Shown here: piece after piece, positions 1,620-62,689 of the stretch | Position numbering within the stretch: position 1 is the first letter of the stretch | Layout: every line of letters begins with the position of its first letter | Assembly (NCBI GenBank): GCA_029204225.1 | Contig: CM055092.1 | Location: 62,646,692 to 62,710,691 of the forward strand | Origin: Diphasiastrum complanatum | Lineage: Eukaryota > Streptophyta > Lycopodiopsida > Lycopodiales > Lycopodiaceae | Direction: 5' to 3' | DNA length: 64,000 bases | The notes under the pieces: generated by a model | What the model was told of the DNA's origin: nothing | What the model saw: only the letters and a program-made list of their open reading frames with translations | Database searches by the model: none | Translations under genes and position numbers: made by a program

Positions 1620-2370
1620 ATGGCGCACAAGAGAGATATGTACGGCTCGAGATACCAAATATCGCACTTGAGCGCAAGTAGGTGTCGTTGAGGCAAACGG
1701 TCAACAAAGCGCGTGCACAAGAGCGATATGCCGCGAATTTTTATAACGGAAAAAGGTAAAACATTAATCGGCTTTTGTGCCATTTATACTAAATTTTTGC
1801 ACGTGCGGTCAACGGTCAATGGACACATGTGTACTTTCAATTCGACTACAGCTACTGGCACGTGCGAGGTGACACCTGGACACGTGTGAAATGACAACTG
1901 GACACGTGTCGTGTGTTCATTTGTGTGCTCAAAAACACGTGTCGCTCTATCATTTGCACGTACAAATCTCACACATGTAAAGTGACAGTGTGACACGTGT
2001 CGCTCTGTCATTTGTTCATGCAACTCCCACACGTGTGATTGGACATTCTTTCGCACGTGCGAACCAGGATATAAAATCACAAACTTCGATGAATTTTTTT
2101 CACTTATTTTTTTCGCTCCGCATATCGTACTTGTGCGCGTCCTTCACACTCGAATTTCCACCTATCGCCTTTCATGCGCACAGGTCCGATACACCTGCCT
2201 ACGTGTCCCCCTGTATCGCACTTGTGCGCGTTTCTTCAGAACTAATATCTTTCTGTTATATTCAGCTCGCACAGGTCCGATATACCGTACGTTCCTTCCG
2301 TACATATCGGTCCTCTGCGAGATTTTTGTCACCCTTGTGTTCTCATCCTCCCCGTCGCGCGCAAGTCCGC
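1620..2370. repeat. Dispersed degenerate motif TATCGNNCTTGTGCGCG in both orientations
   Basis: Related 17-20 bp strings occur near 1622 (GGCGCACAAGAGAGATATG), 1658 (ATATCGCACTTGAGCGC), 1712 (GCGTGCACAAGAGCGATAT), 2123 (ATATCGTACTTGTGCGCG), 2174 (TGCGCACAGGTCCGATAC), 2213 (GTATCGCACTTGTGCGCG), 2268 (CTCGCACAGGTCCGATAT) and 2350 (CGCGCAAGTCCGCTAT). They flank the CACGTG cluster. I cannot say whether these are binding sites or remnants of a small repeat. Confidence 0.5.
1800..2059. repeat. Cluster of eight CACGTG boxes
   Basis: Eight exact CACGTG hexamers occur in 260 bp, with spacings of 59, 22, 22, 33, 58, 36 and 24 bp. The repeated context (GGACACGTGT, AACACGTGTCGCTCT, GACACGTGTCGCTCT) suggests the cluster grew by local duplication of a roughly 60-bp unit that has since diverged. 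Confidence 0.7.
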
Positions 2371-2389
2371 TATTGCATAGTACACATCC

Positions 2390-3061
2390 ATGGATAGGAG
2401 AAAGCAGACCAGGAGGGACTTCTTCTCTCCTGGCTCATCCTCAACCCCTGCGATGCCATTACCCCTCCTGCTAGACATAGAACGCGCAACCGCAGCAGGT
2501 GGCTCTCTAAGATACGCAAGTACCAGAGATCACCTACGTTGTTGATCCCAAGGGCTCCATTCTACAGTGCTGTCCGAAACATAACAAGAAATGATCTCGG
2601 ACAGCTGGTCAGATTTACACCCAGTGCTCTTCAGTGCCTTCAGGAGGCTGTTGAAGATTAGCTTAGTCTTTTTTTTGAAAATTCAATTTTTCCTTGCCAT
2701 TCATTCCAAGAGAGTCACAATAATGCCCAAGGATTTTCAGCTCCTGATGAGAATGAGGGATAGGTTTTGTAGGTTGCACGTATCTCAGCCTTCTGCTCCC
2801 AGGCCAACACCTGTAGATAGGACTGATCTTCCTACGAAGCGTCCTAGGAAGCAGAGTGCCCCCAAGAGAGCCCCAAAGAAAGCAAAGATCGTAGACACCA
2901 CAGATTCTGTGAAACCTGACCCGGAATCAATTGTAGATAATGCTTTTGTTGATAATGCTGTAAATATAGCTACAGTTGTTTTGGATACCGCTTTAATTCC
3001 TGTAGATACTACACATCCACCTCCTCCTCCTCCAATTTTCTTGCCACCACCCTTCTTATAG
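2390..3061 (+). pseudogene. CENH3-like divergent histone H3, frameshifted, with C-terminal extension
   Basis: The start MDRRKQTRR resembles an H3 tail. The core follows in another frame from about 2461: RSRWLSKIRKYQRS, LLIPRAPF, then a loop 1 (NITRNDLGQLVRF) one residue longer than in canonical H3, then SALQCLQEAVED. The long loop 1, the LLIPxxxF segment and the C-terminal KDF are features of centromeric H3. At about 2657 one extra base gives a TAG in place of the expected Tyr and shifts frame. The last helix then continues as AIHSKRVTIMPKDFQL. Canonical H3 stops soon after; here about 100 more residues follow, with a basic NLS-like patch (PTKRPRKQSAPKRAPKKAK), an acidic stretch and a Pro run, to a stop at 3061. 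Two single-base shifts that cancel out suggest a pseudogene or assembly errors. A canonical H3 is unlikely. Confidence 0.75.
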
Positions 3062-3229
3062 AAATTGTGCATTCCCGAATTTCTGTTTTCTTCCACAAGC
3101 GTTTCTTCCCTGGGAATTCAATCAAATTCAAGATCGATTTCTGAGAATCGATTTCCATCTCGTGAATCGATATTTGTTGTTGATGGGATCAGCTAGACCC
3201 CATCAACATAAAACTGGAGCACGTCACCA
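3062..3229. other. Short spacer before the segmental duplication
   Basis: This is the 3' flank of the histone-like gene. It contains three GAATCGAT-type strings near 3130-3170 and the inverted pair GATGGG/CCCATC near 3182-3203. I see no gene. Confidence 0.4.
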
Positions 3230-3689
3230 ATTCATTATTTCGGAGCCAGGGGGCATTGAGAAGGTGGATAGAGGGGCCCTTTGAAGCCATTCTTCATAGT
3301 AGCAAGGTTGCCATCTTTTGCACAAGCAGAGGACATCCTGATGGATGGATGGTTGGAGTCTGGGCCACATGACGGATGTTGCCACCAGTGGTTGCCTCTA
3401 GTGGCAGCCTCTAGAAATGTGGGGGCAGGCCACGTGTGGGAGGTAGAGTGCTACCTTCGACCTATGTGCCATCATCTGATTGGGCATGTTTCTGCCAATC
3501 GGCAGAGGCTGTCTCTAGAGACTGGCCCGCCTCCAAAGGTTGACTGGTTTAACCTCCGGAGGTCACCAGAGGTCACAGTCAACCTCTGGAGGTAAGAGAA
3601 AAAATTCTCGAGATATTCTCTCCTACCTCCTCCATGTGGCCCGGCCTTATGTTTCCGACATGGGTAGTCCGGCATGGGCCCATGGGACA

Positions 3690-4258
3690 TGGCTCTAAAT
3701 GTCTAGACTCTACCCTCCCCTAAGTACTTACTTTTTGGTCTACTCCACATTTGTACACAATGGCAGAGCATATGCCAGCCTGCTTACCAGCCAGACTGCA
3801 ACGGGCGCTCGTGCTTCAGATACTCCTTCATATTTTATAGTTTACTATTCACCATACACGTGTACGGACCTCAGCTGCCAACAGCGGGCCTCTCACGGTT
3901 ACATGTCAGGCCTACTTTTCCTCCTCCTCATCCACAGTTTGCCACGTGTCAATATTTGACGCGTGTCAAGATCTCATTGCTGGCCTCGAATCCGACGGTA
4001 TAGTCACGTCACGAGCTCTCTTTCTCTCTCACTTTCTCGAATCTCGATCTCCATAAGTACATGGCCTTCAATACGTGATTTGAAGCTCGCCACCGTTCGA
4101 TTATATCACGACTGCTCAGATTTTCCCACGCTCTTACGATCAGCCGCTGAATGAGATCCAAGTGGCACGAATGCCACGTGGCAGAAATCCAAGTGATCCA
4201 GCCCCCCACCTTTTGCAAAGGAAAGGAAGCCGCCAGTCCTCGTTCTGGAGACTGGGCC
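3690..4258 (+). promoter_or_regulatory. Conserved promoter-like region, channel copy 1
   Basis: The block is shared with copy 2 (about 35395-36060). Both contain GCCACGTGTC (3941-3950; 35727-35736) followed by GACGCGTGTCAA, and the palindromic G-box GCCACGTGGC (4173-4182; 35949-35958). Copy 1 lacks a short segment with ATTATAAATATAT that lies just after the G-box in copy 2, so it has no clear TATA box. A promoter role is inferred from conservation and box content. Confidence 0.5.
4173..4182. promoter_or_regulatory. G-box palindrome GCCACGTGGC, copy 1
   Basis: This perfect 10-bp palindrome is conserved in copy 2 at 35949-35958. It lies about 80 bp upstream of a candidate first ATG at 4259. 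Confidence 0.6.
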
Positions 4259-4325
4259 ATGGCCGACGTCGATGATCTCGAGGAAGACGAGAGGCGTGAA
4301 TCCTTGAAGGCGCAAGCTCTGCCAT
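4259..4325 (+). other. Candidate 5' exon of channel copy 1
   Basis: An ATG after GGGCC opens MADVDDLEEDERRESLK..., an acidic start running to ...LPCESS and a stop at 4337-4339. A possible donor (CCAT|GTGAAT) would end the exon at 4325. Its phase (1) does not fit the resolved exon at 8870 (which needs 2), so at least one further exon would lie between; none is certain. In copy 2 the same place has lost 31 bp, which breaks this frame. Either it is not a coding exon or copy 2 starts differently. Confidence 0.25.
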
Positions 4326-6044
4326 GTGAATCCTCATAAAATTTCTGATATTATCTGGTAATCTCTGATATTTTTTTGATGCATTGATGGTAATCTCTGA
4401 TATTATTTTGATGCATTGACTTCTAACTTCTTATAGTAATGGTTTGATCTTCGAAAAAGCGATCTGAAAGGTGAATAATGATAACAATGTGACTAATTGC
4501 TAGTAATTCGTAACATGTAATGGCTCAGTTTCATACAATATGTTTGATCTCATGAGTTTTGATGCCTTGACCTTTTATGATTTGGTGGATCTTTTGAAGT
4601 AGGAGTAGGTGTGTCAGTCATTATATCTGATATGTGAGATGTTATTGAAGCTGCAAGTCTCTTGGCTTTCACTTATACCGGAGCTTTCCTATGATCTGCG
4701 CCTCTATTCGTTGTGACTTGTCATGCCTTAACTTCTTGTAAGTTGTTGGATCATTTGTGACCTTTGATGACTTAATTTTTGATACGTCGATGTTGGTTCT
4801 TTGAAGTTTGAATATGCAAATCGTGAACTGTGACTTTTATTCTCAAAAGCTTGTAAGTCTCTTTGGCTTTCAATGCGTTAATTTCTGATAATAATCTATA
4901 ACATATCATTAATGAACTTGTAACTCTCTTGGCTCTTTGTGAGTCGTGACTTGTAATACCTTAACTTCTTATAAGATGTTGGAATTTTGAAGTAGGAAAG
5001 TGCCAGATTGTGTATATTATATTTAGAAACTTGTAAGTCTGTTCGGCTTTCAATGCGTTTATTTCTGACAATAATCTATAACATATTCTTATATATCACT
5101 AAGCTTGTAGCTTTCTTGGCACTTCTCGTAAGTTGTTGTATGTTCTGTGACTTGTACAATGTAAAGCCTTAACTTCTTCAAATATGTTCCATCTTTCAAG
5201 TAGGAATTTGTGCATTGTATTATAAGCTATTGAACTGTCAAATTTGACTTTTATACCTTGACGTGTTATAGTTTGTTTCTGTCAATATTTAGTATGTTTT
5301 GAAACTTGTGCTAATTTATTATAGGATTTGCACAATACACACCTTGAAATAGATGAGGATGGAGTCTCGGTTTAAGCGAGACGTGAATATCAAACTAGTT
5401 TTGCTCACGTTTAAAGCCTCGCTCACGTTAGAAATAAGTCAATATTACTGGTAACTGAATAGAAGATTTTTGATGTTGTTGCAGACGACCAGGTTGGCGG
5501 GTCAAATCCAGATCTCAGTACTGAGGAGTCACGACTGTGGCGGGCCCAGGGGAAGGGTTCCTGGATGGCAGTATAGCCTGACCTTGACATTGTCAAAAAT
5601 GAAGATGCCATTGCTGCGAAGCATGAAGATAGATCGATATTGAATCAAGAAATCCAGCCCTTGATGCCTCGTACTTGTTGAAATTGAGCAGCAAGATTCC
5701 CTCCTCAACGAACTCAAACTGGCGGCAATGAGTACGATAGATCATAGCACTTCAGTTACAACGCCGCCGTGAATGAAATATTGCAGCTATACTACAAAGC
5801 TTCGGAGTGTTCTACTTTTAGTGATATGTGAACACGGTACTACTTTGAACAGCGCAAATTATCTGGACGAATAGAACATAGTATACATTTAAAGTGATGT
5901 CGCAAATTGCAGTTGCCAAATGATAGAGTTGGACGAAGCGCTCGGCTGATAACATTATCGTTCATCTGGACGATATGGAATAAATAGTTTCCAGGCAGAT
6001 CGTTCTGTAAATGTTTTGGTAACCGGTATAGTAGCACATCTATT

Positions 6045-6290
6045 ACTAAAATATATGAATATTGTACAAGATGATTCACTTATTAGGAGGCAAAGATACA
6101 GAAGTTCAAATGTAATAATCTCATTCTCATCTATTACAAAAATGGATGAGTAACGTACAGGGTGATTCCACTTAAGAGGCAGATACAGAAGTTTAATCCT
6201 AATAAGCACTTAAATTTAAAAAATGGATGAGTATTGTACGGGATGATTCCACTTAAGAGGCAAAGATGCAGAAGTCTGAATATAATGCTG
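6045..6290. repeat. Tandem repeat of ~65-80 bp, three units, copy 1
   Basis: Three diverged units each contain ATGAGTATTGTACGGGATGA-like sequence followed by TTCCACTTAAGAGGCA and AGATACAGAAGT. The same three-unit array is in copy 2 at about 37915-38140, so it predates the duplication. Confidence 0.65.
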
Positions 6291-6834
6291 ACACGCCTGA
6301 TCAAATCTAGTCAATGCTTTTTTGACATTGTCAGTTGGAGTGGAGTCCTAAGGACCTAAGAAGCTAATAAGAATATCACCTCAGGCTTCGGCTAGAGGGA
6401 TAGGTCGATCATACCTGATGCCAATGGTACTTTCAACAAGTGAACCATCCGACAGGATATTTGCATATTTGTTTGAAGATAAGCTTTTTCCGTGGTTTTC
6501 CTGAATCGAATCGTCCAAGCTGCGGAAAGGAGGCTTCGAGTTGAGGACGGCAGACTGGCAATTTATTCAACGCGTTTTTGAAGAATAGGTTCCACTGTCC
6601 AGATAAATTACTGAGAGCAAGAAGTTGCAGGGCTTGATGGAAGAAGGATCAAAGGCTGCTAAGGCGCCTGCTTGGGGGTAATTATACCGCCTTCCAGATT
6701 TTTTTGTTTTTATTTGTCAGGAGTAGCTAATTCAACTAGCTTCAAAATGCACTAGCTTCATTCTCTCTCCTCTATAGTATACACCAGAATTTTGGCTTGG
6801 GAGCATGTAGAGAATGCTTCAGGAGCCTTGAGTC

Positions 6835-7040
6835 CAAGACTCCAATTTCTTGGATTTACCAATTCCGCCAGATATTGCTTCCTCAGAGCATCTACACGAT
6901 TAATGACGTAGCATTTCCCTGAACTGTCTTTTTCAGCTGTGGTATGTCTTCATTGTGCTGCAGCCTGCTGATTGGAGTTAACTGGAGACTCGATGATAAC
7001 CTCAACCTGACCTCTGTCAGTTTCTCACGCAGAAGCCTGC
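6835..7040 (-). pseudogene. Conserved minus-strand coding-like fragment, copy 1
   Basis: On the minus strand this reads REKLTEVRLRLSSSLQLTP and, after a frame change, YVINRVDALRKQYLAELVN. Copy 2 (38498-38701) reads the same segments in one open frame of 67 residues starting MREQLTEVRLRLS. I do not recognise the family. The copies differ by indels, so it is probably a remnant of a gene or element present before the duplication. Confidence 0.35.
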
Positions 7041-7129
7041 ATCAGTGATTGAATAGGTTATCCAGTGACCGAAGAAAGTAACCATATCTACGCCTGACTA
7101 GGCAACACTTGATTCATGAACCCTTGCGA

Positions 7130-7950
7130 TTCGTTTGAGAGATGCACAGTCAGCACCATTGAGGTCTGACCATACCTAAGAGGGTACGACTGTGCTTATA
7201 CACTAGATCCTGGCAACGCATCGACACCTCACTTATTGTTTGCCTGCGTTTCCTGACCATCAGTGTGCCTGTGCTTATTCCTTCCCAACTTCCCAAGCAA
7301 CATCTTGGGATTCTTGGCCAACCGACAACCTTTCAGCAGTGAGCACTCTCTTGTTTCGGATAGATCGCATCACCTACCAAATAGTTGGGTCTGATACCCA
7401 ATGTTGCATTGACACCTGGGGGAAGTTGAGACAGCCAACCTGCCTTCAACCAGTCAAGCAATTAATGACGTTGGCGAGCACGCCAACGAACACTGGACAT
7501 GAGTTAGACATCTAAGTTCTAAGTTCTAGCACAACGCAAGAAGATCACCTTCGCATGCCAATGCAACATCGGCTCCACAGAGCTGGCCCTGAACCATCCA
7601 AGCAAGTTATCCAAAGTCAACATCTCATGAGTCTTTTTCATACCCAACCAAGTCAACATACGGACACACAAAACCAAAGTGCAAAATTGGAGCCATTCCA
7701 ACAATTGACATAGAACCAAACCAAGACCAGTAACTTGTCTCAATGCACATTTTAAATGATTATATTGAGAAGGTACATTAGATGGACAGTGACTAGTCCC
7801 ACCAACATGAAATGGGCATGAAGCCTGGTTAATGTTGGTTAGGGGTTGGTGTTGATATTCTGAAGTCTGTCTAGTTGGCAAGTTTTTGACTACCTGTCTC
7901 CTCTCATGGTTCTTTGTAATTTGGCGCACCCACTCTTTTGAAAATGCTAT
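7130..7950. other. Copy-1-specific insertion of ~800 bp
   Basis: Sequence on both sides has a counterpart in copy 2, where the flanks are nearly adjacent (38985-39030). I could not identify terminal repeats, a target duplication or a coding family in the extra DNA. Confidence 0.45.
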
Positions 7951-8869
7951 GCTCATCTAATATTGCACGCTTATTTTGCCAAAATGGGAAAGCCAATGCA
8001 ATTTTAGTTCGGATCTTGGGCAACAAGCTCTAGGAAATATCTTGAGCTAGACTTGAGCGTTAGAGCTCTCAGCTAGCTTAACTATGACAACCAAGTGATT
8101 GGCTTTTATCCATGGGTTGGAGGCACAATAAGACCTGATCTAATGTGTTAGCTCATCCACAGGTTTGAGGTTTAGTCATGTTCATCTAGACTTGCTTTGG
8201 GACTTGAAGTGCCACTGAAATGAGTCTTTTGGGAGCATTCTTGGTGCTCCCAAGCCAGCTTCAAAATAGAGACCCGTCACACCTCCTGATATTTCTAAAC
8301 TAAATGAGTCCTTCAACACACATCCCATGATATTAAATTCAGTTCAATAGCCATGTTCAACAACCTTTCCTACTGATATCAGATTAGGTACTTGTTGCAC
8401 AGCTTGTATACTCTGCATTTTCCTTTTGGAAGTTAAATGATCACACCCCCCTTTCCCCTTTAGAATATGGGATCTGTCATCTTTGTCCTGCAATCCTTTT
8501 AGAATTCAGCCTTGCTTAAATTGTCATTGATATTGGATTCATGATCTTTGTTTTTAAAAAAAATTCAATATTGGACATAAGCTTGAAATTTCTAAAGAAA
8601 GAATATTCACAATTATGACAAAGATGAAATCATGGCTGTTAACTTTGTCAATTTCCCATCTAGCATAGGAGAAATATGTATTTGTTGGTTTATCCCTTCG
8701 ATGGTCTTCTAGGTGTAGAGGATCAGGTTTAAGTTGAAATATTTATACATGTGAGATCATGTTGTTTAGATTCAAAGTTTTAAGCCATTCTTTATCCAGG
8801 CAATTTATTGCTTAGATACTTGTTGCAAAACCATAATTTAAGAAGCTTTTTGTTGTATGTCTTTTGCAG

Positions 8870-25742: not shown

Positions 25743-26514
25743 CGTATAGGGAGTGTACACAGTACAACATCGCCGTTGAAGAGAGCTTCGGGAGAACTGT
25801 CTTCTGAGAGTTCGGGGTTTACGGCGGGTTGAAGACGGAAAGAGAAGCACTGGTGCACGGTTTCTAGTTTATAGAGGCTTGCTAAGCTCAGCAGAGGGAT
25901 TATTAGCCTGAGGTTCAATGCCCAGATGCACTTTGGACCTTTGGATGAGGTGTCAAATGCATCGACGGTCCAGAACTTGTGATGGGAGAGAAACTTGGAC
26001 CACAAGATTTGGTTCAGCCATTGGATGGGCATTGAACAGAGCTCTGAAGAAGTGAAGTGCATTCTGGCCTTCAACCTCATTAAAAATTTTCATACTAAAA
26101 GTTGAGTTGGGTCCCTTCACAAGTGAAGAGTGAAGTTTCTTCAAGCAAAAACTAGAAAAGTCTCTAGTTTTGGGTCCTTTGCCCTTTTTGACCCAAACGA
26201 AAGGCTATAACTTCCAAACGAAGGGCACCCGAACTGTACCTGCAAGTACTGTACATCAAAACAGAGTGATTGCAGTGGAGAAAGTGTTCGAAGTACGCCA
26301 GAAGTGATTTCACCATTCCACTGGACATGTTGTTGGGAGTTGTCAACTGAGTGTATTTCGGAAGGCAACGCCGATTTGGCTTTCAAATTGGTGGAAAAGC
26401 GGCGAGTGGCCTGGTAAGGGAAAAAGTGCAGGTCATTATTTTCAACTTCTGACATCACTGTTGGCCTCAACGTACTGTTCTTAGCCTAAGGCAGAATTTT
26501 CAAGCAGTTTTGCG

Positions 26515-54488: not shown

Positions 54489-55086
54489 ATAGAGTCATAG
54501 TATTGCGTGAGCCACCCTCCACCTGTCAAAAGGGTTAGTTCCACTAAGATAGGTCTCTAACTATGGTTAGTTGCTTATTCTAGTTGTTTTTTAACACTAA
54601 AAACTAACACTAACCCCCAAAACACGATGACACTTGTTTTGGGACTTTGACCTAAAAAAGAGTAATTTTTTTTGGTGTTTTTTAATAGTCCTAGTTTTAG
54701 GCTAAAATCATGGATGTTTTTAATAAATCTCTAAATTTTATTTTAAAAAGAAGCCAAAAAATGCATATTTGTAATAAAGCACTACAAGTTTTTTTTTTGC
54801 AAACTTCATAAAACCATCATAATTTTACAAATGAAATAAGATTTCAAGAGAACAAATGATTTTTGAAACTTGAAATCCCATTGAAATACAAAACGACTTT
54901 AATTATATTTGCATATTCTCTTTTTTAAAGTACATTCTCTAAGGAATTTTCATTGAGCCCATCCCGCATATGTCTATGACAAAGGGCCATCTCTAGACAC
55001 AACAGCCCAAGAGCAATCCGCACCACCAGATACCGCTACGGGCCCTTCATCCTCGGGCATTCTTGTAGTGTCAGATTTTGGCAAGG

Positions 55087-56489: not shown

Positions 56490-58590
56490 GGATCCATCAT
56501 CCAGTTCATCTCTCTCTCATTGACAAACTCGATGGAGATAACTACCATCTCTAGAAATTCAAGATGAAGGTTATACTTCTAGCCAAAGAACTGTGGGACA
56601 TCGTTGATGGCACAGAACTCAAACCAAAAGGTGATGCAGCCATCATCACCAAGTGGAGATTGAGAGATGGCAAAGCATTTGCCATGATCATCCTCAACAT
56701 AAAGGACACTCAGATCAACCACATATGTGCTGCTTAGACATCTAAGGATGCATGAGACATCCTAGCAACTCTCTACAGCATTAGAGACGTTACATCCAAG
56801 CTCCATCTGAGGAAGAAAGTCTTCAACCTTAGAATGTCTGAAGTAGATAGTGTTTCGAGTCACCTCAACACTTTCAAAAATCTTATGGAACAGATGACTA
56901 CAACAGGCTCAGTCATAGAAGATTTTGATGCACTCATGACTCTATTTTCGAGTCTACCTTAAGCCTACAAATATTGTGTAATGACAATTTCTATCCAGGA
57001 GCACCTCACTCTATCAAGAGTAATCTCGTTGCTCCTACAGAGGATATCAGAAGATCAGCATCCTCCTCAGGCTCAAGATCAGATCCTCAAGCTCTGTATT
57101 CAAAAAATCAGAAGTTTAGATCCAAGAGATCTACAAAGTCAGGCTCTATTGACAAAAAGAGCAACATGTATTCTGGACCAAATTTTGGTTCAGGATCAAA
57201 TTCAAGCCCTTCATCATTCCAACCTGTGCAGAAACTAACAAAAAGAAGAACAGTTCCAACAACAAGCACATAGTGCTACAGCCAGTCACTCAAATCAACA
57301 ACAAGAAGAAAAAGAAGATGAAGCAGCTTTCATGACCAAAGTTGAAGAACAACAGGATATCGATTCCTGGTATCTAGACTCCGGAGCAACTCAACACATG
57401 ACTCACCATTGCGACTGGTTCAAAGTCTACAAGTCGTTCACCCACCCTTGAGTTGTGCAACTTGGAGACAACTCATCGCATTCAATCGAAGGTGAAGGAA
57501 TAGTCAGCGTTGAGTTCAAAATGGGTGAAGTCAAGTTGTTGTCCAATGTTCTCCACGTTCCAAATCTGACCAAGAACCTACTCTCAGTTAGCAGAATCAC
57601 CGATTCATGTCAGAGGGTCAAATTCGATACAAAAGACTACACAATCCTTGACAAATCTCAGAAGGTTCTAGCCTACGGAAGAAGAAGTGGCTATCTTTAC
57701 AAACTCAGCCATTGCTATTCTTCTAACAGTCAAGCTCTTCACACAGCCACTTCTGAATCAACTGATATGCTGTGGCATTTCAGACTTGGCCATCTTAACT
57801 ATAACAATATTCAGTAAATGTTAGCTCAAAATCTAGTACAAGACCTGCCTTCAGTCAGCAAGCCAACTTCTCCATGCGAAAGCTATATTATCAGCAAGCA
57901 TGCTAGAAGTCCCTTCAATTCAGACTCAGTTCATACGTCCAAGAGCTTGCTTGATCTTGTACACAACGACATTTGTGGCCCGATGCAGACTGCTTCCACA
58001 GGTGGAGTTCTCTATTTTTTAACCTTCATCGACAACTTCTCTCGAATGACTGCAACCTAAATCCGAAGCATTCAAGTTCTTCAAGTAGTTCAAGGCGTCT
58101 GTAGAAAACCAGACCTAGAGGAAGATCAAGACTCTATGCACAGATGGAGGGGGAGAGTACATCTCCACAGAATTCAACGAGTTCTGCAAGGCCAACGGGA
58201 TACTTCAACAATTCAAAACCAGCCACTCACCTCAGTCCAATGGTGTAGTTGAGCGGAAGAACCGGACACTCATCGAAAGTGCCAAGAGCATGACGGCCTA
58301 TGCCTTTCTTCCAAGGAAGTTCTGGGCAGAAGCTATTACTATAGCTGCCTACTTACAGAATCGATCCATCACCACGGCTCTTAATGGCAAGACACCTTAT
58401 GAGGTGTGGACAGGATCAAAACCATCACTCAAACATATTCGAGTGTTTGGATGCATCGCTTTCGCTCAGATCCCTGAGAATCTAAGAAGAAAGCTAGATG
58501 ACAAGAGCAAAAAACGATCTTCATCGGTTATTCCCAAAATCACAAGGCATACAAGCAGTTTGAGTGTTCACAACTTTTTTTTTGGACTTT
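56490..58590 (+). pseudogene. Copia element B gag-protease-integrase, truncated
   Basis: Gag is readable but has several stops, most where Trp is expected. The protease is WYLDSGATQHMTH (57370) with VLHVPNLTKNLLSVSRIT. An HHCC-like integrase start (WHFRLGHLNYNN, 57775) and LDLVHNDICGPMQT follow. After frame shifts near 58060 come CTDGGGEYI, PQSNGVVERKNRTLIE and LNGKTPYEVWTG. Homology stops at about 58590, with RT and RNase H missing, where the ParB-like element begins. Confidence 0.85.
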
Positions 58591-58699
58591 GAGGCACCCT
58601 GAGCAGATTGGCCTTTTATTTGAAAAGTTTTTCACTTATCAAAAAATTTATCAACAAGGGCCCACACCTAAAATAAAAAAAAAATTAATTGATAAAGAA

Positions 58700-60308
58700 T
58701 TTAACCAATATTATTATTGAGCTCAAAATTTTAGTCTGATAAAAATAATTTAAAAAGATTATAACATATATTATGACCAGAGCATTCCATGATGAGCATA
58801 GCCAAACAAATTACCTGGCCACTGCGAAAAGCAAGCTAAAAAAGATTATCGTATTTAGTAAGGCTCTACGTAGGATTTTTTGAATCAAAAGGCAGGCCTG
58901 TCTCTTGAGCACATAGTTCTTTTAGCTCAAGTTGATTCACATCTCCTGCTTTGGAGACTCTCATGTATTCTTTGTGAAAAAAACGAATTCTTTGTATCAC
59001 GGTCATCTTCATCCGGTAGTCCTGATCAATATTGTGGTCCCAAGCCAATAATTTCGCTTCTTCCACTGTAGGCCAACAAATGCAATGGCACTCACAGTTC
59101 GAAAGCTTGGGATATGGGGATATTCTTGAGATGATTGTTTTTGAGCTTGTAAACTGTGTATCCCCCCAAGAACAAAAAAATGATATGAATCTAATAAAGA
59201 AAAATCAAAATTTGCAACATCGTTGCATTCATTGGGATCAACCAAAACAACAAAGGGAGTAACTATGGCCTGTGTATGATCTTTAAATTTTATTTTTAAA
59301 TTACGTACATATGTTTCATTAGACTATCTAACTTCCATTGGCCAATCTCCTGTTGTTGGGTCTACAGGTGGCCTATCACACTGATTTATGTCTAAAATTA
59401 AAGTTGTTTCTTTTATTTTTTTGGTTTTATGGATATCCTCTCTTAATTTGGCAAATTCGGAGATGTCTTGTAATGGGTGGATGGATGCACCAGGTAGCGA
59501 CAAAGATGGTTCGGTGGCGGCTTTTTTGCTTTCAGTAGAAGGGATGGACTTATGGCGATGTGTAGCCATGGTCTTTGGGTGTGACTTAGGTCTAGTGGGT
59601 GAAGTCTCAGCAATATTATGAGATCTTTTTGTTTTTGGGATGAGGGACGGCTACGGTTTCATCCTCAACATTTTCAGAGGCCGTCTTTGTGACCTGAGCA
59701 GTGGTAGAAGCGGGCTTGCGAGGTCCAATAGATACACCTTTTGAACTCCGTAATGAATAGACTGGATCTTTTCCCTCAGCAATAGCAGCTAAAACCATTT
59801 TCAAGCATTGCTTCATGCTCTGGACAGAAACAAAAATCAAGTTTAAAATATAATGACTAAAAGCTTAAATCTAAAAGTTTAAATAATTTTATATCTAATA
59901 ACAACTATGCTAAGTATGAAACAAACATGATTAAAAATATATTTTATAACTACTCACCAAAGTAACTAAAGCTTTATCAAAATAGGCTTTGATGGTCTCG
60001 TCCTGACAAAGTCGGATATTTATCATAGTCTCGCTCAAAATGAAAATAGAATGAGACTTATCCGTCTCCTTTACAAGTATATTCACAAAATCTTTTTCTT
60101 GATCCTCATCTTGTTGATCAGCAAGCAATCTTCCTTGAAGTTTGAATTGTGAGTCTCCTCTGCCAGGCTTCTCAGCTAAATGAATAAAAAGCTCCGAAAG
60201 CTTTGTGTTGTTGACCCCTTTGGTGAAATGGTACATGAATTTTTTCTTATCTTTTAATGGAATGTCTTGAGGTTTCCCCGAAATTTTAAGAAATCCTTGA
60301 CATTTCAA
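58700..60308 (-). pseudogene. ParB/sulfiredoxin-like domain protein gene (broken)
   Basis: Exon 1 (60308-59958, 117 codons) starts MKCQGFLKISGKPQ and ends at a GTGAGT donor. Exon 2 starts at 59819 after CTGTCCAG, in phase (SMKQCLKMVL). A basic Ser/Pro/Lys-rich region follows, then DINQCDRPPVDPTTGDWPME, a TAG at 59324, VTPFVVLVDPNECND, and FFVLGGIHSLQAQ with the GGxH motif of ParB/Srx-type folds. In another frame come VEEAKLLAWDHNIDQDYRMK and VIQRIRFFHKEYM. A weak continuation (LAFRSGQVICL) lies near 58810. At least two frameshifts and one stop are present. I recall this domain order from uncharacterised eukaryotic proteins, not from a named transposase. ParB folds bind DNA sites and CTP in bacteria; a DNA-binding role for the adjacent array is inferred. 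Confidence 0.6.
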
Positions 60309-60455
60309 AATATATCAAAGACAATTGAAAATTTGCAAAAAAAAAAAAGACTTTTTAGGAAAATTTAAAACGCTATCTTAATGAAAATGCTGAACATCTC
60401 AAAAGAATCACTTTTCTGAGACAAAGCGTTGTAAAACAAGAAAATACGAGTAGCG

Positions 60456-60994
60456 ACCTATGCTAAGCATAGGTTGTGGTCAAGTCCTTACTAACAACTT
60501 ATGCTTAGCATAGGACGGAGGCGAGATTCTTCAATTCTAATCTCCTTTCAACCTATGCTGAGCATAGCTTTCATCTCTGGTCCTATTCCAACCTATGCTC
60601 AGCATAGGTTAGCAAGCAAATTGCGAAGACATCCTATGCTCAGCATAGGTCGTTACTCGCGCGCTCTTGTCCAACCTATGCTGAGCATAGGATGTCTTCG
60701 CTATTTGCTTGCTAACCTATGCTAAGCATAGGTTGGAAGAGGACCAGAGATGCAACTTATGCTCAGCATAGGTCAAACCGTGGTAAGAATAAAGAAATAA
60801 CGCCGGAATCCTATGCTGATCATAGGATATTACTAAGGACCCGAGCACAACCTATGCTCAACATAGGTTAAAGGAGAAGACTGGTGCAGGCACCTATGCT
60901 GAGCATAGGTTACCCATGTTGCAAGAAGATGAATACAAATTAAAATATGAATATTTTCTAATGCAAGAATTTATTACCCATGCTAAGCATAGGG
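60456..60994. repeat. Array of twelve 19-bp palindromes ACCTATGCTNAGCATAGGT
   Basis: Sites start at 60456, 60497, 60551, 60591, 60632, 60674, 60715, 60755, 60809, 60850, 60892 and 60976. Each is a near-perfect inverted repeat around a central base. Spacings are 41, 54, 40, 41, 42, 41, 40, 54, 41, 42 and 84 bp. Sites 1-10 are mirror-symmetric about 60662, and 84 is twice 42. Flanking spacers are also inverted copies. The array lies between two divergent genes and resembles bacterial parS or iteron arrays and multi-site transposase-binding regions. Confidence 0.95.
60574..60750. repeat. Large inverted repeat at the array centre
   Basis: Arms of about 77 bp (60574-60650 and 60674-60750) match almost perfectly in inverted orientation around a 23-bp centre (60651-60673, with CTCGCGCGCTC). 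Weaker symmetry extends out to at least 60551 and 60773. Confidence 0.9.
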
Positions 60995-61006
60995 CAAAGC
61001 TAAAAA

Positions 61007-62644
61007 ATGACAATAATCTTACCGTCAAGAAATCTGGAAGCGAGAACGTATGCGGAATTTTATAGAAAGCCGTGCATTGGAGCACTTGTGTTTGATGGCA
61101 CTTTGGAGTCCAAGGTCTTTTTTAATTATCCCAATGTTCGAAATGATCCAAATTTGACGATCACCATTAAACATAAGATAATTTGCGAATTTGGTGAAAA
61201 TCTTCCATAAATACTTTATTTGCAACTTGACAACACTGCTAGGCAAAATAAAAATCAAACTGTTTTGGCATACTTGTCTATGCTAGTGGAGAAATTTTTT
61301 TTCAAAAAAGTAAAAATAGGATTTTTGTTGGTAGGACATACCCACGATCAAATTGATCAAATGTTTAGTTGCTTTTCTAAGAGGTTGAGACGCAAGAAAG
61401 CATTTTCATTACCAGTGCTTCAAAGCATTGTTGAGGAATTGTATGTGCCAAAGCCAAACGTGTCATTAATCAGACACACATATGATTTTTGTGATTATGT
61501 TAAGGCGTCCAATGAAACAGAGCGATGCGTAGCTAATATTAATGATATTAGCTTTCAGCACCAATTTAAAATCAAATGTAACAAATCAGGCATTATATTA
61601 TTATGGGGCAAACTATTTTCAAATTCAGTTTCGTGGCTACCTCTTGAAGGAGTTCGATTTTTGCTTAACATTCCATCGACTCAAATCAAGCTTGCTATGT
61701 TGTCTCCCTTGAAGTCCTTGCTAGAAGAACAAAAGACGCAAAGAGAACATCATGAGATTGATCCATTTGCCTCATTAATTTTTTTGGAATCAAGTATTCA
61801 AGCAGCTTATCATTTTTTTGATGAGTTTGATCAGCATTGGTGGATGGACTTTTTCAAGAAACAAAAAACAATCTCGAACATACATCAACAACTGATGAAT
61901 TGTATTGGCCTCATAAATTAGGAACATCAACTACGACTGTCGAACCTTCAGATCTTCTTCGAGATAATGATTTTCTGCAGCTTGTGCAAGGTGAGGAACG
62001 TGAAATTTATGTGGGCTCAAGGAAGAATAGGCAAAGTGTAAAAGCTGCAAAAATAAAATGGCGCGGTGATTTGAATGAAATCCAAATTGGAAGCCTTGTT
62101 GTACATCCATTTTGGATTGCCAAAGTACTTGGTTTTATTCAAAATAGCAATTAAACAAAAGTACTATGTGTCCATTGGTTGCGCACCACTTCAACGAATG
62201 CTTTTTTGGGAAGGTACGAACTTGAAATGTTGCAAGTAGATCCAAAGGGCAAGAGAAAGAGATTGCCAAAAAATCAACCAAGAGTCGACGATTTGAATCT
62301 ACAGGATGTAGATGTTTTGGCATTTAATTTTGAATTAACAATGACCAATCATCTACGAATGTCAACAATATCTATATTGAAAGAACGACTTGGATTACTT
62401 GAAAAACCATCATCCTCCACTCGTCATCAACAGAGAAAAGTTGATTTACAAGGTTTTTTTGTCAACATTAGATGCGGATTCTAAGGAAGACATGCCAATT
62501 GACTCTGATGAAGCAGACGGGTCTTCCACTTCATCAGCTAAAAACGAGAGTGTTGAGAATATGTCAAGTTCTGAATTGAAAGACATCAGTGAAAATTTCT
62601 TAGAAAATGTACTTTTAAAAAAAGAATGTGCAAATATAATTTAA
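61007..62644 (+). pseudogene. Transposase-like protein gene (probable DUF7869 family), broken
   Basis: The frame from 61007 reads KPCIGALVFDG and VRNDPNLTITIKHKI, a TAA at 61208, then LYLQLDNTARQNKN (61212) and FLLVGHTHDQIDQMFSCFSK (about 61322), then FSLPVLQSIVEELYVPKP. The LQLDN...GHTHxxIDQMFS pair is the signature of a widespread uncharacterised family with an RNase H/DDE-like look. A frameshift near 61855 leads to KNRQSVKAAKIKWRGDLNEI; a TAA lies at 62152; then WLRTTSTNAFLGRYELEML and DVDVLAFNFELTMTNHLR. The usual N-terminal half is missing: the frame starts just after the palindromic array. Probably a dead, truncated copy. Confidence 0.65.
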
Positions 62645-62689
62645 GTTATTTTGTATTTCAATGGGATTTTGAGTTTTATTGTAATTCTT

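Follow-up and report, generated by a model that had tools for sequence, protein, structure and literature searches.

The DNA transposon Sola1-1_Ec32 of Ectocarpus carries an accessory gene for a ParB-methyltransferase opposite its transposase gene, and similar genes have been cited from green and red algal transposons (PMC12477816). It has been suggested that the Ectocarpus protein binds and modifies its own transposon; the accessible part of that report names no target site, and the string 'palindrom' is absent from its main text. Here we describe a degraded copy of a terminal inverted repeat (TIR) DNA transposon in a 64-kb stretch ('the window', 64,000 nucleotides) of contig CM055092.1 from Diphasiastrum complanatum. 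The family is about 6-8.5 kb in length, and within the copy twelve palindromes lie between a minus-strand gene predicted to encode a ParB-like domain and an N4/N6 DNA methyltransferase, and a plus-strand DUF7869 gene that likely encodes a transposase. New here relative to the algal cases is the palindrome array with a common core, located between ParB-methyltransferase and DUF7869 genes in plant DNA. A first-pass annotation, made from the sequence of the window, had proposed an undescribed element. Given what is in print for algae (PMC12477816, in its accessible part), that view does not extend to the ParB-methyltransferase gene, and it may stand for the array, since our searches of the openly licensed literature turned up no account of palindrome arrays in transposons of this type.

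As far as the accessible part of its description goes, Sola1-1_Ec32 is a DNA transposon in which a single gene, lying opposite the transposase, encodes a ParB-like domain together with an N4C/N6A DNA methyltransferase. Our element resembles it in carrying both kinds of sequence on the strand opposite its DUF7869 gene, where they would likewise make up a single gene. It differs in its length of 21.5 kb, whereas the present element has a DUF7869 partner, a core-bearing palindrome array between the genes, and a plant (and likely fern) host. The Sola superfamily as a whole is characterized, in the portion of the source available, by a DDD-type transposase, 4-bp target duplications, TIRs of at least 11 bp and a length that is mostly 2-9 kb, and its members are known in moss and uncommon in flowering plants (PMC10741241). 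Our element shares 4-bp duplications, 11-bp TIRs, a length of about 8 kb and a predicted DDD/RNase H-like transposase with this superfamily. Bce_0392 of Bacillus cereus likewise combines a ParB-like domain with an adenine methylase, and nonspecific nicking has been reported for it; it is bacterial, and the accessible text mentions no palindrome array (PMC5512222). Fungal DNA transposons of several superfamilies also carry a DNA-modification enzyme as an accessory gene, namely a TET/JBP dioxygenase, but according to the part of the report at hand this unrelated enzyme oxidizes methylcytosine and adds no methyl group (PMC12730594). Finally, KorB of plasmid RK2 is a ParB fold that serves as a transcriptional repressor (PDB entries), albeit as a plasmid protein.

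The array occupies positions 60457-60993 of the window, and the first-pass count of twelve palindromes was accurate: all fit CCTATGCTNAGCATAGG with no more than one mismatch. The palindrome has the core ATGC-N3-GCAT, and the twelve recur at a phase of about 41 bp, with start-to-start distances of 41, 54, 40, 41, 42, 41, 40, 54, 41, 42 and 84. When up to three mismatches are permitted, the window holds 13 matches, of which 12 are in the array and one is at 25881, compared with a chance expectation of 0.17 and a highest count of 1 in 100 shuffles. The core itself is present ten times in the window, always inside the array; the pieces of the same genome taken from outside the window hold a few cores away from arrays. 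As had been proposed, two genes diverge from this array, one identified by a GGIH motif on the minus strand (59156-59167) and the other by a LQLDN...GHTHDQIDQMFS motif on the plus strand (61220-61369). Palindromes of the CCTATGCTNAGCATAGG type with at most one mismatch are found at 5717 sites in the genome (1.74 Gb), whereas a reversed control gives 0. Three extra palindromes, possibly intronic, reside within the ParB-methyltransferase gene of K22 and K20 (L015:7129-7281; L014:397-550). Separately, a minisatellite reading of the array was rejected, as Tandem Repeats Finder calls no array there.

Eleven array loci, all on contig C1, were fetched from this genome, and flanking sequence was added for seven. 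Parts of both genes flank the array on opposite sides in five of them (L006, L009, L013, L014 and L015), parts of one gene are found beside it in L007 and L012, and L011 has only non-coding sequence in common with the element. The most complete copy is 8545 bp long (L015, 447-8991). Sharp right ends are evident at six places, with the final bases missing in K19, and sharp left ends at four, and together these yield the TIR sequence AACAYGATGAC. A search of the genome for right ends returned 1043 candidates, and 40 of these were scored; one of ten right ends had a left end in 1 kb at the expected distance, and the resulting copy (C13, about 8.1 kb) is flanked by the target duplication ATAT. Overall, three of the five copies with both ends carry a 4-bp target duplication, the other two sequences being TATT, which flanks both ends of K3, and AACA in L032, one of the contigs considered below. 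TIRs of at least 11 bp are represented by AACAYGATGAC in this genome and by near-identical 32-bp ends in another such contig, L037. These findings, together with the dispersed palindromes and the contigs described below, support the earlier proposal that the palindromes and the two genes constitute one dispersed mobile element, and they supply the terminal repeats and target duplications that the annotation had suggested seeking among copies.

The minus-strand gene of the window is preserved in parts. An N-terminal exon remnant (59931..60308) is an open reading frame (ORF) that recurs as the same exon in L007, L013, L014 and L015. It is followed by a predicted intron, GTGAGT...CAG (59820..59957), placed by reading the sequence, which is open on both sides, and then by frameshifted ORF pieces that cover a linker and the start of the ParB-like region (59324..59840). 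The ParB-like core, GGIHSLQA with its following helices, is likewise frameshifted (58866..59245) and shares about 45% identity with intact, likely fern ORFs whose predicted fold is ParB/Srx-like; GGSH is present in at least 90% of 32 aligned ParB-like sequences. The window copy lacks the methyltransferase exons, whose place would be beyond 58557, and the first-pass annotation overlooked them. Copies in the same genome that reach past this truncation run into exons with the motifs ADIPY, ACPYQK and VLDLFSGSGTT. The family model PF01555 (cut-off 26.7 bits) matches both a reading joined from two of these copies (4.7e-10, 40.2 bits) and an intact exon of a fern-like locus (33.9 bits). In the fern-like sequences the motif order is ADIPYGF, NPYQKP, VLDLFSGTG, where DIPY is a variant of DPPY, and we take these to be motifs IV (DPPY-like), X and I (GSG), respectively. 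By sequence, the nearest solved structure to the methyltransferase is CcrM (3.1e-5). A protein search with a fern-like ParB ORF returned 29 proteins, and phage methyltransferases match weakly, with the best-covering rows at 22-24% identity.

On the plus strand, the remnant of the DUF7869 gene spans 61007..62644, with 1.8 kb of its N-terminal part deleted, and an ORF at 61220-61921 matches Pfam DUF7869 (PF25273) at 6e-36. From the AlphaFold2 (AF2) fold of a relative (P0006) we predict an RNase H-like core, and DUF7869 is likely a DDE-type transposase. Thus, the predicted folds lend support to the earlier ParB-like and DDE-like guesses for the two products. Named relatives include proteins of Riccia, Adiantum and Chara, with those of animals (Branchiostoma, Mytilus) being more distant. 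No match to the DUF7869 ORF was found in a plasmid collection, no relative was seen in scans of viral contigs, and no publication on DUF7869 was found in the openly licensed literature. The AF2 model of P0006 also includes a beta-rich C-terminal part (residues 493-582) that is found in DUF7869 proteins, and the weak Foldseek rows for this model include polybromo BAH and Arabidopsis EBS.

Scanning genome contigs with a DUF7869 alignment yielded 11 loci. Eight of these, L030-L037, belong to a bin deposited under the name uncultured Trichormus, a genus that includes Trichormus azollae, the cyanobiont of the fern Azolla. These contigs carry methyltransferase pieces split in an intron-like manner as well as a gypsy-like element, and among named organisms it is Ceratopteris richardii that has the closest relative of their ParB ORF (57%). 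For these reasons, and because of the link between the bin and Azolla, we consider L030-L037 likely to be fern DNA. The resemblance of these contigs to host plant DNA also points to likely contamination of the public bin.

The two genes are divergent in all five contigs that are long enough to hold both (L031, L032, L034, L035 and L037), and in each of these the ParB and methyltransferase pieces are consecutive on one strand, opposite DUF7869. Stop-to-stop DUF7869 ORFs are 873-898 amino acids (aa) long in four contigs and split in L037; ParB ORFs, followed by the methyltransferase pieces, are 566-594 aa in four contigs and 278 aa in L037. The ParB region of the window is 45-46% identical to four of these over 172 aa and 45% identical to that of L037 over 153 aa (E 2e-42 to 5e-49). 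The L032 copy measures 7724 bp and has TIRs of the form AACACG..., and its flanks, once joined, give back an open gypsy reading, which means that the empty site is restored.

These contigs bear on the earlier suggestion that relatives be examined for adjacency and palindromes. Palindromes are located upstream of DUF7869 in seven of the eight loci and between both genes in four of the five contigs holding both. The number of palindromes exceeds the maximum of 100 shuffles in six of the seven (L034, 11; L031, 9; L032 and L036, 4 each; L030 and L033, 3 each), but the counts for L032 and L036 each include one unrelated, AT-rich palindrome. The outer letters differ, being GTCGATGC-NNN-GCATCGAC or relatives in the fern-like arrays versus CCTATGC-TNA-GCATAGG in the genome of the window, whereas the core ATGC-N3-GCAT is common to both. 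In the eight loci taken together, the gap sequence (7,619 bp) contains 29 cores and the remaining 51,387 bp contain none. Given that the core was picked after both palindrome sets had been seen, this comparison of sequence inside and outside the gap is a fair test, and the discovery of the core is not. Ten cores in L031 recur every 50-52 bp, compared with mostly 40-42 bp in the window, and in L035 two cores fall within a single long palindrome. In one array (L034:2706-3291), two palindrome types, GTCGATAC... and GTCGATGC..., alternate, and these may reflect two binding proteins or two affinities.

The ratio of nonsynonymous to synonymous substitution rates (dN/dS) is 0.07-0.12 in six of six pairs of fern-like DUF7869 ORFs, values that are rough because dS is 0.96-2.9. 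For the fern-like ParB ORFs, dN/dS is 0.08 in the one pair of six with unsaturated dS, and in the other five pairs differences are two to three times as frequent at third as at first codon positions. Pairs from the genome of the window, computed with stops and gaps skipped, give 0.20-0.58 for ParB, 0.21-1.18 for the N-terminal part, 0.43-0.65 for methyltransferase codons (10 copy pairs) and 0.44-1.04 for DUF7869; the values exceeding 0.9 belong to pairs whose dS is about 0.1 or lower. Judging from these ratios, both genes were likely constrained while the element was mobile, with decay following insertion.

With these data in hand, we consider it reasonably probable that, in this transposon, the ParB part of the ParB-methyltransferase binds the ATGC-N3-GCAT palindromes that separate its gene from that of the DUF7869 transposase, controls the promoters and brings the methyltransferase to the element. 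ParB-fold proteins load at palindromes, and CTP allows them to slide, which is why we think that the ParB part would dock on the array between the two genes; nucleotide-bound ParB entries are among the structure rows for the ParB model. Once docked, it may control both divergent promoters, and it may also deliver the methyltransferase to the DNA of the transposon itself, which would then be methylated.

Several observations weigh against this reading. The ParB-like stretch matches no ParB family in Pfam, PHROGs or NCBIfam, the model of this part has a mean pLDDT (predicted local distance difference test) of 60, and a protein search with the ParB-methyltransferase reading from the genome of the window yielded 0 matches. 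Foldseek, which the first-pass annotation had recommended, gave no hit with E <= 0.001, whether for the ParB or for the DUF7869 model. As a consequence, both fold calls rest on topology and on VIA-align, a re-alignment of the candidates that Foldseek itself proposes, which does indicate ParB and RNase H-like folds. We infer that the ParB and methyltransferase exons form one spliced protein and that the ParB part, as opposed to the transposase or a host protein, is what binds the palindromes; the likely fern origin of contigs filed under Trichormus is similarly our own assignment. The duplication of K22, which sits in a GA repeat, is unreadable. Despite its near-identical ends, L037 has mismatched flanks (gtaa/cata) and no array, and the palindrome count of L035 (1) is not above chance (null maximum 2). 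Distant DUF7869 relatives with 24-28% identity reside in cyanobacterial and Bacteroidetes bins (L038, L039 and L040), and no ParB-methyltransferase was detected at these loci. Lastly, the same palindrome is present without the element genes in other repeats (L005:4517-4859, L008:4341-5134 and L010:4332-4663), often with a spacing of about 28 bp and, in L008, as part of a unit of about 190 bp that is itself repeated. These are possibly non-autonomous elements or other families that use the same palindrome.

A more elaborate proposal, which we put forward only tentatively, is that the ParB-methyltransferase uses the array as a parS-like loading site from which, acting as a nucleotide-gated clamp, it slides and writes a self-mark of N6-methyladenine or N4-methylcytosine (6mA/4mC), and that this system predates the split of the window-plant and fern lineages. 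It seems unlikely, but not greatly so, that the array is an operator only, with the ParB-like protein being a KorB-like repressor of both promoters and the methyltransferase acting elsewhere or not at all. KorB operators are palindromic, and KorB is not known to carry a methyltransferase. The dN/dS values of the methyltransferase codons argue that this part was kept, and 10 or more sites would be many for a simple operator.

We regard it as improbable that the palindromes serve the DUF7869 transposase as binding sites, in the role of an internal transposition enhancer or for autoregulation, while the ParB-methyltransferase targets something else. The fern-like loci with palindromes upstream of DUF7869 are consistent with this arrangement, three of them being on contigs that end before the ParB gene, but the TIR letters are unlike the palindrome when judged by eye, and it is palindromic sites that the ParB fold usually binds. 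There is very little likelihood that the array is a self-complementary source of hairpins (small RNA or DNA cruciform) to which no element protein binds. It does form a single long inverted repeat in the window (60456..60868), whose 195-nt arms (60456-60650 and 60674-60868) are 83% complementary around a centre of 23 nt. Arrays in L012, L013 and L015 are self-complementary across about 410 bp at 80-81%, and inverted-repeat arms of 31-37 nt extend across two palindromes in L031, L032 and L035. However, a hairpin does not require a common, regularly spaced core of 8 bases around an N3 centre, and among nine arrays of this genome, including that of the window, pairwise identity is 88.7% in palindrome columns versus 77.2% in spacers, which a hairpin would need as well. 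We give almost no credence to a ParABS-like segregation device, a role that the first-pass annotation had entertained on the strength of a ParB-like protein (now a predicted fold) and parS-like palindromes, because the element sits integrated between target duplications and no ParA-like domain was revealed when 10 pieces of L015 and 9 ORFs of fern-like loci were scanned with Pfam.

The window copy itself spans 58557..62676 as determined by blastn against copies of the same genome, a little wider than originally assigned, and both of its bounds are truncation points inside the element and not termini. It corresponds to positions 2271-8302 of the L015 copy minus 4870-6669; the resulting loss of about 1.8 kb from the plus-strand gene is at 61077-61080, and stops and frameshifts disrupt both genes. 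A copia neighbour is evident from a Pfam Pol_BBD match (3e-12), whereas the gypsy neighbour described by the first-pass annotation has only a protease match below threshold (0.038). These neighbours abut the truncation points because this copy retains only the internal portion of the element, and the earlier idea that an intact unit had inserted between the copia and gypsy sequences was rejected, given that both junctions cut the element internally. A right-terminal fragment of a second, inverted copy of the same family is found at 54621..54956 on the minus strand, where it shares 90% identity with positions 8214-8545 of the L015 copy and ends at the terminus.

The array with its common core provides a concrete DNA target for the idea, derived from algal transposons, that such elements bind and modify themselves, and intact ORFs exist. 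DUF7869 gains a likely function, that of a transposase. If the tentative clamp proposal is true, the 6mA/4mC self-mark would time transposition or hold off host silencing, and if the favoured reading is true, a bacterial-style DNA-marking system would operate within plant genomes.

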